64,000 nucleotides of DNA, taken from assembly GCF_004361695.1 (NCBI RefSeq), contig NZ_SNVW01000001.1:248001-312000 (forward strand). The letters are read 5' to 3'. A program made the translations under genes and the position numbers. Shown here piece by piece: positions 20,924 to 52,620 of the stretch. Below the pieces are notes generated by a model. The model did no database searches and had not been told where the DNA came from. It saw only the letters and a list, made by a program, of their open reading frames with translations. Positions within the stretch are counted from its first letter, which is position 1. Each line of letters opens with the position of its first letter. The DNA comes from Curtobacterium flaccumfaciens (GTDB taxonomy: Bacteria; Actinomycetota; Actinomycetes; Actinomycetales; Microbacteriaceae).

Positions 20924-21673
20924 ATGAGCCGTCGGCGAACGTGGGTCGAGATCACGATCGTCCTGATGCTGTCGCTCGGTGGCAGCGCCCTCTACTCGGT
21001 GCTCCAGATCATCGACGACCTGTCCCAGACGACGCCGCTCGGACAGCAGTCCACGGCACTCAACACGTCGACGACCACCGTGCAGTACGTCGACCTCGCA
21101 CGGCAGCTCGTGGGCATCGCGGTCGACCTGGCGCCGGTCGCGCTGGTGTGCTTCCTGCTCTGGCGCACGACCCGCCCGCACCTCGGCCGGCTCGGCATCG
21201 ACCGGTTCCGCGTGGGCCCCGACCTCGGTGGTGCGGCACTGATCGCGCTCGGCATCGGGATCCCGGGGCTGGCGCTCTACTTCACCGGCCGCGCGCTCGG
21301 GTTCACCGTGAACGTGAACCCGGCGGCGCTCGACTCGTACTGGTGGACGATCCCGGTCCTGCTGCTCTCGGCGATCCGCTCCGGGCTGCAGGAGGAGGTG
21401 ATCGTCGTCGGCTACCTCTACGAACGGCTCGGCGGCCTCGGGTGGGGGCGCTGGCAGGTGATCCTCTCCACCGCGGTCCTGCGCGGGAGCTACCACCTGT
21501 ACCAGGGCTTCGGCGCGTTCGTCGGGAACGCCGTGATGGGCATCGTCTTCGGCTGGATCTACACGAAGTGGGGCCGGCTCCTCCCCCTCGTCATCACGCA
21601 CTGCCTGCTCGACGCGGCGGTGTTCGTCGGGTACCCGTGGGTGGCCCACGCCTTCCCCGCGCTGTTCCGCTGA
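20924..21673 (+). CDS. CPBP family intramembrane metalloprotease-like protein
   Basis: The protein has 249 residues and about seven membrane segments, with AGGAG eight bases before ATG 20924. The motifs QEEVIVVGYLYERL (EE pair), GSYHLYQGFGAFVGNAVMG and ITHCLLDAAVF correspond to the Abi/CPBP glutamate and histidine positions. The Arg of the canonical EExxxR motif is absent at its usual place, as in a recognised actinobacterial subgroup. Protease activity is therefore inferred, not certain. Confidence 0.82.
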   Translation: MSRRRTWVEITIVLMLSLGGSALYSVLQIIDDLSQTTPLGQQSTALNTSTTTVQYVDLARQLVGIAVDLAPVALVCFLLWRTTRPHLGRLGIDRFRVGPDLGGAALIALGIGIPGLALYFTGRALGFTVNVNPAALDSYWWTIPVLLLSAIRSGLQEEVIVVGYLYERLGGLGWGRWQVILSTAVLRGSYHLYQGFGAFVGNAVMGIVFGWIYTKWGRLLPLVITHCLLDAAVFVGYPWVAHAFPALFR

Positions 21674-21766
21674 CCCGCTGCTCCGCTGCTCCGCTGTGCT
21701 GCTGCTGCGCCGCGCCACTGGTCCGCCGCGCCGCTGGTCCGCTGGTCCGCTGCGCCGCTGCTCCAC
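21671..21766. repeat. Low-complexity CTG/CCGCTG-rich repeat tract
   Basis: Downstream of the CPBP stop there is an imperfect tandem tract built of TCCGCTGCT and GGTCCGCTG-like 9-mers. It has no hairpin strong enough to call a terminator. It is probably generated by slippage and is non-coding. Confidence 0.7.
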
Positions 21767-22361: not shown

Positions 22362-22629
22362 GCGCGGTGGCGCCTGGTGGTGTGAGTGCGCTCGATGCGC
22401 GTGCATGCAGATAGCGCGGATCCGGCGTGGCGTTCCCCGGAATTTCTCGCCGTGGGGTATTGACACCCGAACGGGGGGACGAGGACCATTGGTGGAACGA
22501 GAGGTCCACACAGGATCTGCCTCCCCGGGGAATCGGGTCGTCCGGAGATACGCGACGGTGTGTCACACCCGCTCTCCGGGCGTTCCCGGGGAGGCATCTC
22601 GTAACCCTCTTGCTTGTAGCCTCGTGGGC

Positions 22630-23184
22630 GTGCAGACCACCACGATCCTCGCCCCCGGCATGCGCACGCTCGCCGTCGTCCTGTGGGTCGTCGCCGTCGT
22701 GCTCGTCCCCCTCGCCCTCGTCGGTGACGGGATCCGCTGGCTCGCGCCCGTCCCCAGCGTCTTCATCGCCCTGGTCGCCTGGGCGGTCCTCTGGCGCCCC
22801 CGCTTCGAGCTCACGCCGGAGCACCTCCGCATCGTCGACGTCCGCCGCACCAGCACCTACGCGTGGCGTCGCGTCACCGAGGTCCGCACGAAGTACGGCA
22901 TCGAGATCGTCTCGAGCGAGGGCGTCCGCCGCACCTGGCTCGCCACCCGCAGGTCGGCCCGGCTCAGCGCCGTGGTCGAGGGCCAGCCAGGAGGCGCGAC
23001 CCACCTCGACGTCGACGCCGCGGCCGAGCGCATCCGGGCCTTCGTGCCCGCCCCGCCCGCGCAGAACGGCCCGCCCCCGGCGACGGTGACGGCTGCGCCG
23101 ATCACCCACCGCGCGCACGGGTGGACGATCCTCGCGATGATCGTCCTCGGCGTCGCCGCGTCCATGGCGGCCGCGCAGCTGTAG
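22630..23184 (+). CDS. PH-domain membrane protein (paralogue 1)
   Basis: The protein has 184 residues from GTG 22630; GTG 22624 is an alternative. Two N-terminal membrane helices (TLAVVLWVVAVVLVPLALV, VPSVFIALVAWAVLW) are followed by a bacterial PH-like domain (FELTPEHLRIVDVRRTSTYAW). A C-terminal helix (WTILAMIVLGVAASMAAAQL) follows. A TGTAGC box at 22615-22620 suggests a leaderless mRNA. Residues WRPR...VDV are shared with the second PH protein at 25889, implying a paralogous pair flanking the ABC ATPase gene. The 268-bp upstream spacer contains nothing else I can identify. Confidence 0.75.
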   Translation: MQTTTILAPGMRTLAVVLWVVAVVLVPLALVGDGIRWLAPVPSVFIALVAWAVLWRPRFELTPEHLRIVDVRRTSTYAWRRVTEVRTKYGIEIVSSEGVRRTWLATRRSARLSAVVEGQPGGATHLDVDAAAERIRAFVPAPPAQNGPPPATVTAAPITHRAHGWTILAMIVLGVAASMAAAQL

Positions 23185-23211: not shown

Positions 23212-23939
23212 CGCGCCTCCAGGCCGCCACGTGGGCCGTTCCGCGCGTCCCGGGCCCTTCCGCGCGTACCGGGTCCTTCCGCGCGTACCAGGTCGATTCG
23301 CGCGTACCAGGTCGTTTCTTTCGACCCGGTACGCGCGATTCCGCTTCCTACTACGCCCGCGATGGGAAGGAACGCACACCGGGACGGACTGGAGGCGCGG
23401 GGCGGCCCGGCACCGTGCCTCCAGGCCGACGCGCATGGGTCGTTCCGGGCGTACCAGGTCGTTCTGGGCGTACCAGGCCTTTTCGCGCGTACCAGGTCGT
23501 TCCTTTCGACCAGGTACGCGCGATTCCACTTCCTACTGCACGAGCGATGGGAAGAAACGCACACCGGGACGGACTGGAGGCGCGGGGCGGCCCGGCACCG
23601 CGCCTCCAGGCCGACGCGCATGGGTCGTTCCGGGCGTACCAGGCCTTTTCGCGCGTACCAGGTCGTTTCTTTCGACCAGGTACGCGCGATTCCGCTTCCT
23701 ACTGCACGCGCGATGGGAAGAAACGCACGCCGGGACGGACTCGAGGCGCGGGGCGGCCCGGCACCGCGCCTCCAGGCCGACGCGCGTGGGTCGTTCCGCG
23801 CGTACCAGGCCGTTCCGCGCGTACCAGGTCGATTCGCGCGTACCAGGTCGATTCGCGCGTACCGGGTCATTTCTTTCGACCAGGTACGCGCGATTCCACT
23901 TCCTACTGCACGCGCGATGGGAAGGAACGCACGCGCGCG
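23212..23939. repeat. Composite nested repeat array between convergent genes
   Basis: There are four units. Each has n copies of a 19-bp subrepeat (consensus GTCGTTCCGCGCGTACCAG) starting at 23235 (n=4), 23439 (n=3), 23624 (n=2) and 23790 (n=4). A constant block starts at 23311, 23496, 23662 and 23866. Distances between blocks are 185, 166 and 204 bp, exactly 128+19n. In each block the last subrepeat pairs with a downstream arm (for example 23650-23665 with 23673-23688, loop TTTCTTT, one mismatch). In the first three the gene-end palindrome follows (arms 23389-23400/23413-23424, 23574-23585/23598-23609, 23740-23751/23764-23775). Unit lengths not divisible by three argue against coding despite open frames through it. 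Confidence 0.95.
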
Positions 23940-23946
23940 CGAACGA

Positions 23947-23982
23947 CGACATCCCCGACGTCGTGTGACGTCGGGGATGTCG
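23947..23982 (-). terminator. Hairpin terminator of the ABC transporter operon
   Basis: It has perfect 16-bp arms (core CATCCCCGACGTC / GACGTCGGGGATG) and a GTGT loop, beginning 15 bp past the ATPase stop on the minus strand. It directly abuts the repeat array. Confidence 0.85.
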
Positions 23983-23996
23983 TTGCGGTTCGGGTC

Positions 23997-25772
23997 CTAC
24001 TCGTCCGAGCCGGCGGCGAGGATCTGGCGACGCAGCTCGCGACGCTCGCGCTGGACGTCAGGGTCCGGCAGGGGCACCGCGGCGATGAGTCGCTGCGTGT
24101 ACGGGTCCTGCGGGTCGCGGAGGATCTGGTCGCGCGTGCCGACCTCGGCGAGGTGACCGTGGTGGAGCACCGCGATCCGGTCGGCCAGCACGTCGATGAC
24201 CGCCAGGTCGTGCGTGACGAACAGGCAGGCGAAGTCGAACTCGCGCTGCAGGTCCTTCAGCAGCTCGAGCACGGTTGCCTGGACCGACACGTCGAGCGCC
24301 GACGTCGGCTCGTCCGCGATGAGCAGCTTCGGCCGGAGTGCCAGCGCGCGGGCGATGCCGATGCGCTGCTTCTGGCCGCCCGAGAGCTCGTGCGGGAAGC
24401 GGGTCGAGTACGCGGTGGGGAGGCGCACGGCCTCGAGCAGGGACTCGACCTCGCGCTCGAGCTCGCGGCCCTTCATGCCCTTGCCGAGCAGCAGCGGCTC
24501 ACCGATGGACTGACCGATCGTCATGCGCGGGTTGAGCGACGACGACGGGTCCTGGAAGACGATGCCGGCGTTCTGGTGGACCTGGCGCACGAGCGACCGC
24601 GTCGGCTTCGAAAGGTCGACGCCGGTCACGTCGAGCTGGCCCGACGTGATCGGCAGGAGCCCGATCGCCGCGCGGCCGAGCGTGGACTTGCCGGAACCGG
24701 ACTCGCCGACCAGGCCGACGACCTCGCCCTCGTGCACCGTCAGGTCGACGCCGTCGATGGCGCGGAACGCCTTCACGCGGCCGCGGCCCGGGTACTCGAT
24801 GACGACGTCCTTGAACTCGAGGACCGCCGGGCCGAGCGTCTGGACGACGTCCGTGTGCAGCAGGGTCTCGTGGACCTGGACCGGGGTGTCCTGCTCGACG
24901 ACCGCCTCGAGGGTCTCGGTGAGGTCGATGACCACGTCGCCGGCCTGGCCGAGACGGGGCACGGCGTCGAGGAGGGTCTGGGTGTACTCGTGCTGCGGCG
25001 CCGCGAAGACGTCACGCACCGTGCCGGTCTCGACGGCCACGCCCTGCTTCATCACGACGATGCGGTCGGCGAGGTCGGCGACGACGCCCATGTCGTGCGT
25101 GATGAGGAGGACGGCGCTGCCGAGCTTGCCGGCGAGGTCGCGGATGAGGTCGAGGATCTCGGCTTGCACCGTGACGTCGAGGGCCGTGGTCGGCTCGTCG
25201 GCGATGAGGAGCTTCGGGTCGCAGGAGATCGACTGGGCGATCATCGCGCGCTGCCGCTGCCCACCGGAGAGCTGGTGCGGGTAGGAGTCGAACGCCTTCT
25301 GCGGGTCGGGCATCTCCACCATGGTGAGGAGCTCGATCGCGCGGACCTTCGCCTCGCTCGGCGAGATGCCGTAGTGGATGCGGAGCGTCTCGACGATCTG
25401 CGACCCGACGGTGAAGACCGGGTTGAGGGCCGTCATCGGCTCCTGGAAGATCACCGCGATCTCCTTGCCGCGGTACTCGCGCAGCTGCGCCGAGCGGAGC
25501 CCGAGGAGCTCGGTGCCCTGGAACTCGATCGAGCCGTTCACGCGGGCGTTCCGGGGCAGGAGGCCGAGGATCGACATCGAGCTCACGGACTTGCCGGAGC
25601 CGGACTCACCCACGAGGGCGAGGACCTCACCGGACTCGATGACGTAGGACAGCTGCTTGACCGCGGGGGTCCAGACGTCGTCGACCGCGAAGTCGACGTC
25701 GAGCCCGGAGACCTTGACGACGGGGGTGCTGGTGGCGGCCGGGGTGGTGGCCGCGGAGGCGGGCGTGCTCAA
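23997..25772 (-). CDS. Oligopeptide/dipeptide ABC transporter double ATP-binding protein (DppD-DppF fusion)
   Basis: The protein has 591 residues with two complete ABC cassettes. The first has Walker A LVGESGSGKS near residue 55, signature LSGGQRQR and Walker B LLIADEPTTALD. The second has Walker A near 355, LSGGQKQR and LLIADEPTSALD. Each has the oligopeptide-type C-terminal element (EYTQTLLDAVP; DPYTQRLIAAVP). It powers the permeases encoded upstream. It is separated from the dppC-like gene by an inserted opposite-strand PH gene. Confidence 0.93.
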   Translation of the reverse strand: MSTPASAATTPAATSTPVVKVSGLDVDFAVDDVWTPAVKQLSYVIESGEVLALVGESGSGKSVSSMSILGLLPRNARVNGSIEFQGTELLGLRSAQLREYRGKEIAVIFQEPMTALNPVFTVGSQIVETLRIHYGISPSEAKVRAIELLTMVEMPDPQKAFDSYPHQLSGGQRQRAMIAQSISCDPKLLIADEPTTALDVTVQAEILDLIRDLAGKLGSAVLLITHDMGVVADLADRIVVMKQGVAVETGTVRDVFAAPQHEYTQTLLDAVPRLGQAGDVVIDLTETLEAVVEQDTPVQVHETLLHTDVVQTLGPAVLEFKDVVIEYPGRGRVKAFRAIDGVDLTVHEGEVVGLVGESGSGKSTLGRAAIGLLPITSGQLDVTGVDLSKPTRSLVRQVHQNAGIVFQDPSSSLNPRMTIGQSIGEPLLLGKGMKGRELEREVESLLEAVRLPTAYSTRFPHELSGGQKQRIGIARALALRPKLLIADEPTSALDVSVQATVLELLKDLQREFDFACLFVTHDLAVIDVLADRIAVLHHGHLAEVGTRDQILRDPQDPYTQRLIAAVPLPDPDVQRERRELRRQILAAGSDE

Positions 25773-38047: not shown

Positions 38048-38248
38048 GGAACTCCCCCTCTGTCATGTGCCTGAGAGTTTCACCGCGGCCCGTGAGGTCC
38101 GGCGGCTTTCACCGTGGGCGAGACGCACTGCGTCTGCTTTTCAGAGTGGCCTGCCCGTGGCGGTGTTGGACCTGAGAGATTGACGGGGAGGTTGCTCCTT
38201 CGGTGCCGTGCGTGTGCCGGGGCACTGCACGACGTCTCCCGCGACGGA
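38048..38248 (-). ncRNA. Tandem glycine riboswitch controlling gcvTHP
   Basis: Read on the minus strand, two aptamers follow one another. The first has GGGAGACGTCGTGC, CCGAAGGAGCAA and ATCTCTCAGGTCC. The second has the CTCTCAGGCA motif, then GACAGAGGGGGAG just before the leader end. These are the conserved glycine aptamer elements, duplicated in the cooperative arrangement. Glycine binding should turn on glycine cleavage genes. It fills most of the 346-bp spacer to the divergent blaI-like gene. Confidence 0.9.
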
Positions 38249-38346
38249 TGGTCGGCCGGTGTTCAGTTGTCCGCGCACGAGCATACCCAGCCCGCGTTAC
38301 GGGCATGTGTCGCGTGCCGCGGTTCGACGTCTCGTAGAATGCCCGG

Positions 38347-52158: not shown

Positions 52159-52620
52159 TCAGCGGGTGCGGTCGTCTCCGCCGCCGGCCGGTTCGCCGCC
52201 GGGGACTGGTTCGCCGCCGGGGGCTGGTTCGCCGCCGCGGGCTGGTTCGCCGCCGCGGCTGGCCGGTTCGCCGCCGCGTGGGCCGCCGTCGTCCGGGCCG
52301 TCGGCGCCGCGGAACCGATGGCCCCCGTCAGCGTCGACCGGGAGCTCGTCGCCCACACGCTGGGCGGCGTCCCGCAGGTGGCGGATGAACGCCGAGTCCT
52401 CGGGCTCGAGTTCGTCGTCCGGAGCGGCACTGAGCGTCAGTTCGCTCGCCGGCCCGAGCAACACGGTGGTCCGGGTCACCGAGCCGTCGTCGGCGACCGC
52501 CGGGATCGCCACCGTGTCCGTCCTGCTGTTGGCGCCGAGGATCGCCGCGTAGTCGAGGACCGCGTCGGCGATCGCGTCACCCGTCAAGATCATGCTGCCG
52601 TCGTAGTTGATGTACTTCAC
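52159..52620 (-). CDS. Hypothetical protein with Gly-Gly-Glu-Pro tandem repeat tail
   Basis: The protein has 153 residues from GTG 52620 (GGGAGG upstream). The N-terminal ~90 residues are globular (VKYINYDGSMILTGDAIADAVLDYAAIL, ending TTVLLGPASELTLSA). The last ~35 residues consist of GGEPA/R/P repeats encoded by 15- to 18-bp imperfect tandem DNA repeats (about 52175-52290). The tail is probably disordered. No known family. Confidence 0.75.
   Translation of the reverse strand: MKYINYDGSMILTGDAIADAVLDYAAILGANSRTDTVAIPAVADDGSVTRTTVLLGPASELTLSAAPDDELEPEDSAFIRHLRDAAQRVGDELPVDADGGHRFRGADGPDDGGPRGGEPASRGGEPARGGEPAPGGEPVPGGEPAGGGDDRTR

Follow-up and report, generated by a model that had tools for sequence, protein, structure and literature searches.

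BOX elements of Streptococcus pneumoniae are modular repeats with constant ends and variable tandem middle modules (boxA and boxC flank boxB); they form hairpins, are intergenic and over-represented between convergent genes, and have terminal inverted repeats and target duplications. The convergent bias of the pneumococcal repeats is read there as that of tolerated parasites (PMC3049150). REP/BIME elements are small dispersed palindromes found mostly between convergent or unidirectional genes, defined by a GTAG/CGTC tag at the hairpin foot; an excess of GT pairs in REP has been counted in favour of transcription (PMC3733652). DUS of Neisseriaceae have species-specific spellings, or dialects, occur also as inverted intergenic pairs, and number thousands of copies per genome, within as well as between genes (PMC3630211). 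Template switching, inferred from mutation patterns in RNA genes, has been proposed as a route to multi-base compensatory change of hairpin arms without G-U intermediates (PMC8794818). The comparisons made here draw on parts of these four papers.

The locus described here lies in a window of 64,000 nucleotides of Curtobacterium flaccumfaciens DNA, the whole stretch that was analysed. Its element shares with BOX the modular build, the hairpins, the intergenic position and the preference for convergent genes, and, like REP/BIME, it consists of short palindromes dispersed at gene 3' ends. In contrast to BOX, the module that is repeated also serves as an arm of the hairpin, inspection by eye showed no clear target duplication, and the arms form genome dialects. 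Unlike the case of REP/BIME, no REP-associated tyrosine transposase (RAYT) was found in 60 genomes of the genus, its first hairpin has no GT-pair excess, and the GTAG/CGTC tag is absent from the hairpin foot in the sequences inspected by eye (GTAG occurs inside the stem in some spellings only). Unlike DUS, it occupies tens of sites as tandem 19-mers at gene ends, with about 43 units and none of them genic. On balance we consider it a small interspersed repeat in DNA, modular in the manner of BOX and REP and restricted to the genus; it behaves as such repeats do and is assigned to neither. No paper naming it was found by title or abstract start, in a literature search that most subscription journals fall outside.

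A repeat search of the window found 13 direct copies of a 19-mer in groups of 4, 3, 2 and 4, with start spacings of 19,19,19 / 147 / 19,19 / 147 / 19 / 147 / 19,19,19. The four repeat units they belong to occupy positions 23238-23929, between stop codons at 23184 (+) and 23997 (-), and follow one another at 185, 166 and 204 bp, that is, 128+19x3, 128+19x2 and 128+19x4 (128+19n). TRF reports 19-bp arrays and 185/166-bp periods with scores up to 684. Identical 10-mers number 48 at lag 19 and 0 at other lags from 11 to 59 unless a multiple of 19, which excludes chance as the origin of the 19-bp register.

Read on the plus strand, each unit consists of n 19-mers close to GTTCCGCGCGTACCAGGTC, a short spacer, an inverted 19-mer, hairpin 2 and a tail such as GGAACG. 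Hairpin 1 is made by the last direct 19-mer of the group and its inverted downstream copy; in the predicted folds of units 1-4 it has 18, 16, 16 and 17 pairs, interrupted by one or two mismatches, and its loop measures 7 nt except in unit 4, where it has 9. Hairpin 2, with 7 pairs (CTTCCTA/TGGGAAG), is present in all four units. By RNA folding each 80-nt core adopts the same two-hairpin structure, at -40.9 to -42.6 kcal/mol. Units 1-3 are each followed by a gene-end palindrome and unit 4 by a 17-bp perfect hairpin (23946/23983), which we place outside the unit because a like hairpin is kept at the array-less orthologous sites L109 and L114. The unit lengths differ modulo 3, so no reading frame is kept across the array.

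A preliminary description, made from the sequence alone, had given the same number and grouping of 19-bp copies, the same 128+19n distances (here reproduced exactly), a stem of about 16 bp starting from the last subrepeat, a gene-end palindrome in three units and convergent flanks, and had argued from the unconserved frame that this is not a repetitive protein gene. All of this holds; hairpin 2 was absent from it. The features are collected in Table 1. Pfam gave no match for the 259-aa frame holding the upstream gene.

Table 1. Features of the array and its flanks, in window coordinates
Feature	Position	Strand	Basis
Upstream convergent gene; start from own codon model	22624..23184	+	codon-bias gene finder
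Group 1, four 19-mers; 5' arm of hairpin 1 in the last one (23295-23313)	23238..23313	+	repeat search
Unit 1 core: hairpin 1 (23296-23340), hairpin 2 (23344-23369)	23295..23374	+	R1 98.2 bits, fold
Gene-end palindrome after unit 1	23380..23433	.	direct-repeat families, inverted pairs, sequence reading
Group 2, three 19-mers	23442..23498	+	repeat search
Unit 2 core, two hairpins	23480..23559	+	R1 92.3 bits
Gene-end palindrome after unit 2	23565..23618	.	inverted pair
Group 3, two 19-mers	23627..23664	+	repeat search
Unit 3 core, two hairpins	23646..23725	+	R1 95.9 bits
Gene-end palindrome after unit 3	23731..23784	.	inverted pair
Group 4, four 19-mers	23793..23868	+	repeat search
Unit 4 core, two hairpins	23850..23929	+	R1 94.6 bits
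17-bp perfect hairpin, end of ABC-ATPase gene	23946..23983	.	inverted pair
Downstream convergent gene, ABC transporter ATPase, oligopeptide type	23997..25772	-	ABC_tran twice, oligo_HPY

The 728-bp array used as a query gave 65 matches in its own genome (G000, 3.80 Mb), including palindrome-only ones and many that represent both strands of one place. A covariance model, R1, built from 42 units, places about 43 units at 40 intergenic sites of this genome. To obtain the sites, the raw matches of two runs (76 and 85) were reduced manually to the better-scoring strand, so that the antisense shadow of each palindrome fell away; four sites, L131:3014, L157, L158 and L159, are weak. The amplified, dispersed REP/BIME-like palindromic element of the preliminary description is borne out by these counts, and the comparison of its units with related genomes, proposed at the same time, finds the R1 family in 28 of the 38 sampled genomes of the genus (the named relatives are Curtobacterium). 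The other ten (G003, G007, G008, G019-G022, G025, G035, G036) have no R1 match. Among 199 genomes of the bacterial family, searched with stricter filters, R1 matched three, all of the same genus, and the other 84 genera gave none; G041, also of this genus, gave none under these filters. At the level of the order, two of 149 genomes matched, namely the own genome and one with a weak 38-bit match. Plasmid and phage records contained no match to the element at E 1e-5. DNA search with the array matched 60 of 60 genus genomes, a figure that is probably inflated by the separate gene-end palindrome, since ten genomes lack an R1 match. A 174-aa stretch of the neighbour gene product had 18 named relatives: 16 from Curtobacterium, one from an uncultured Curtobacterium and one from Microbacteriaceae. 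Three G000 contigs end less than about 200 bp from a copy (C14 88300-88379, C18 53-132, C20 193-272), and, judging by these contig ends, some arrays may break the assembly.

The element marks gene 3' ends and is commonest between convergent genes, as at the window site. The 39 other sites of the own genome are convergent in 15 cases, tandem in the same orientation in 11, tandem opposite in 7, divergent in 2 and undetermined in 4. For 100 sites in relatives, counted after three duplicate loci had been dropped, the figures are 58, 22, 17, 1 and 2, and for the pooled sites 74, 33, 24, 3 and 6. Gene context was taken from our own codon-bias gene finder and not from annotation; sites were allowed to run up to 30 nt into a gene end, and at L158, a weak site, the overlap with a called gene end reaches 35 nt. 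Between tandem genes, 33 same against 24 opposite is unbiased (p 0.29, a context p-value that overstates independence, as sites in different genomes may be orthologous); the orientation of the element therefore does not follow the gene. The median distance from the upstream gene to the core is 71 nt in relatives, and no core of the own genome lies inside a called gene. A chromosome-segregation or strand-skew motif was considered and rejected: judged by eye, unit positions in G001, G029 and G034 look spread over both strands; in G017 the second half of the record leans to the plus strand (16 of 20 units).

At the window site, relatives with the same gene pair have 3, 2, 2, 2, 1 or 0 units, compared to four here. 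There are three in MCBA15_008, two in UNCCL20 and in G034, two weaker ones in C. pusillum DE0370, one in C. flaccumfaciens Sample7_18, and none in C. pusillum ATCC 19096, DE0005 and ISL-83, where the gene pair is kept; orientation is identical wherever units occur. R1 matched in 4 of 18 named loci and in none of the other 14, in most of which another gene follows or the stretch was unread; the 99 loci examined are part of those fetched. The preliminary description envisaged possible strain variability; unit numbers do differ between species at the same site. The assembly collapse or expansion that it allowed for is unlikely, given like arrays at this site in independent assemblies. The repeat could serve as a marker of the genus, with species differing in the number of units.

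For a wider comparison, we hand-picked 18 own sites whose flanks were clean and searched for these flanks in seven other genomes. One of the sites, L131, could not be paired in any of the first four genomes and stayed outside the test; with the window site added, 18 sites were tested. R1 matched in 36 of 60 intervals fetched from G053, G034, G018 and G038, and in 9 of 30 from G024, G005 and G033, plus copies at such sites fetched earlier. Filled sites keep place and orientation, and their spelling is often different yet still paired; at L144 it is CGCTCGTAGGAGG in G000, CGGGCGTACCTGG in G005 and CGCGCGTCGGTGG in G024. R1 absence alone does not prove an empty site, and empty calls rest on intervals that were read: L139 is empty in G034, G018 and G024, L133 in G018, G005, G033 and G024, and L140 in G018, G005 and G024. 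The L127:4714 site in G053 retains a single 19-mer, an apparent loss that looks like a deletion scar. By eye, no clear target-site duplication was seen in the filled/empty comparisons examined, and mobility is thus unproven. Among 191 units, 0-6 19-mers precede the arm, a variable tandem module of the BOX/MITE type.

Hairpin 1 stays paired through C-G/G-C exchanges, and its arms change together. Of 157 distinct cores, 78 have C-G and 75 have G-C at column pair 7-41; at pair 13-35 there are 86 with C-G and 59 with G-C. These counts include 36 of the 43 own units (the other seven are weak or not 80 nt long); of 129 aligned matches from relatives, two are not 80 nt long, and identical ones were merged. 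Over 190 cores, the mismatches of hairpin 1 are G.T in 80 and A.C in 93 cases (p 0.36); those of hairpin 2 are 122 and 50, an excess found mainly in two columns, with three others leaning to A.C. Since G.T is no commoner than A.C and tandem orientation is unbiased, the conservation of hairpin 1 points, at the level of sequence comparison, to DNA rather than RNA. The G.T excess in hairpin 2 could reflect an RNA-level constraint there. The structured RNA array suggested in the preliminary description is therefore not favoured for hairpin 1; hairpin 2 may have an RNA role. In Rfam, nothing in the array scored above gathering, with two miRNA matches far below it.

The spelling of the arms follows the genome more than the site, so that one may speak of a genome dialect, and that of hairpin 2 follows the site more. 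This was examined by shuffling genomes within sites 1000 times for 68 copies that represent 18 sites in 8 genomes and were not chosen by subtype. For the 5' arm the same-genome distance is 0.224 versus 0.276 when shuffled, and 0/1000 shuffles were as low; without G000 and G053, i.e., in six genomes, it is 0.167 versus 0.261. The corresponding values are 0.266 versus 0.307 for the 3' arm (0.200 versus 0.274 without this pair) and 0.283 versus 0.308 for hairpin 2 (0.285 versus 0.319), a smaller genome effect. Hairpin 2 has the stronger site effect (0.269 versus 0.312, 0/1000 shuffles); that of the arms is weaker, with p 0.019 for the 5' arm (0.004 in the second set) and p 0.067 for the 3' arm. 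Copies of one site in different clades are 0.262 and 0.261 apart in the 5' arm. The first five genomes alone give a slight contrast, 0.250 for the same site and 0.242 for the same genome, and the closest pair, G000-G053, is near-identical at shared sites (5' arm distance 0.085). The residual site effect, this near-identity and the slight five-genome contrast indicate that homogenisation is incomplete and slow. Spellings are mixed within each of G000, G053 and G029; the per-genome subtype counts derive for the most part from top-scoring matches, which makes them a biased sample. The window site of G034 is a hybrid, its 5' arm in the commonest spelling of that genome and its 3' arm complementing another, from which direct repeats appear to change first.

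The best reading of these patterns is a BOX/REP-like interspersed repeat that is homogenised within genomes. Genome-specific hairpin spelling suggests that something copies or corrects the repeat across the genome, and the arms are probably kept complementary by template switching at replication, in a model that carries the proposal of PMC8794818 from RNA genes to a dispersed intergenic DNA repeat. The numbers of units and 19-mers would shift by slippage or recombination between direct repeats; 19-mers would be homogenised among dispersed copies, by conversion-like exchange or an active copier, giving the dialect; and the inverted arm would be rewritten to match by fold-back template switching, whereby the hairpin would stay paired without RNA-level selection. 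The position at gene ends would chiefly reflect tolerance of such DNA there; between converging genes the repeat may also have a secondary use as an insulator or a DNA-topology site. No copier or conversion route was seen and no parent element was found. Small bacterial repeats may evolve in concert at fixed sites in the absence of a RAYT transposase, as these data suggest. A more specific version, which we put forward tentatively, is that a sequence-specific factor, either a copying enzyme or a binding protein, drives dozens of fixed sites to one spelling per genome, with the inverted arm following; orthologous sites would then switch spelling in concert while their hairpins stay paired. One site with different, still-paired spellings across genomes, and at least one hybrid intermediate, would make a natural system for asking whether compensatory change in a long hairpin is due to selection or to replication template switching.

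The main rival to homogenisation is a coevolving binding protein, which would give the same dialects. The 19-mer would be the site of a sequence-specific DNA-binding protein (a nucleoid protein, a gyrase-like protein or a regulator), and the direct copies with one inverted copy would be a cooperative array between converging genes. Tandem copies in a fixed 19-bp register, strand-symmetric conservation of hairpin 1, the convergent bias and spelling by genome at orthologous sites are all compatible with it; a site array of this kind sits less well with a 19-mer count that can fall to zero, with mixed spellings in single genomes and with ten genomes of the genus that have no R1 match, and no candidate protein was identified. 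We consider this reading rather unlikely. It is less probable still that the array is a transcribed structure, a terminator or a stabiliser of the mRNA 3' end of the upstream gene. Proximity to stop codons, a stable predicted fold and the G.T excess of hairpin 2 agree with such a role, against which stand the lack of G.T preference in hairpin 1, the unbiased orientation between tandem genes, the absence of a T run after the hairpins in all four units, the lack of an Rfam match above gathering score, and the element-less sites L109 and L114, which keep the ordinary hairpin of the ABC gene.

The remaining alternatives have little to recommend them. Mobilisation as a REP/BIME family by a RAYT, which would suit palindromic copies dispersed at gene ends, is highly improbable: the preliminary description had advised looking for this enzyme elsewhere in the genome, and a search for Y1_Tnp (PF01797) was negative in all 60 genomes of the genus and positive in 5 of 14 controls. 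We give equally little credence to a DNA-uptake signal, which the dialects and inverted pairing recall by their likeness to Neisseriaceae DUS (PMC3630211). The Competence (ComEC) family is present in 36 of 38 genomes, but these include all ten without the element, and two genomes where the family was not found (G009 and G023, neither complete) carry it, so the family fails to separate genomes with and without the element; about 40 gene-end sites also compare poorly with the DUS of that paper, which number thousands in each genome. Open frames in several registers run across the array, which would suit a repetitive protein gene, but successive units are out of frame because of their lengths. 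Like arrays at the same site in independent assemblies make an assembly artefact unlikely, and arm changes that preserve pairing speak against both; together we regard the two as practically negligible.

Other palindromes accompany the element. The gene-end palindrome that follows units 1-3 (Table 1) is a second dispersed one, GGAGGCGCGG...CCGCGCCTCC with a variable centre, found also elsewhere in G000; it probably extends to more genomes of the genus than the 19-mer element does, as genomes without R1 still give DNA matches to the array. In a third, intergenic palindrome the outer arms, GCGAAAGCGACAG...CTGTCGCTTTCGC, hardly vary while the inner ones do; it is found at the R1-less sites L308, L317, L257 and L331, and beside a copy in L056. 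Another gene-end palindrome, GTGAGCAGGAACGGTCGGGT...ACCCGACCGTTCCTGCTCAC, occurs at L310, L319 and L312 in G005 and G033. Elsewhere in the window, TRF reports tandem repeats at 21660-21764 (8/24-bp periods) and 52178-52296 (18/54-bp periods), and two RF00504 matches above gathering score mark tandem glycine riboswitch aptamers at 38053-38251 (-).
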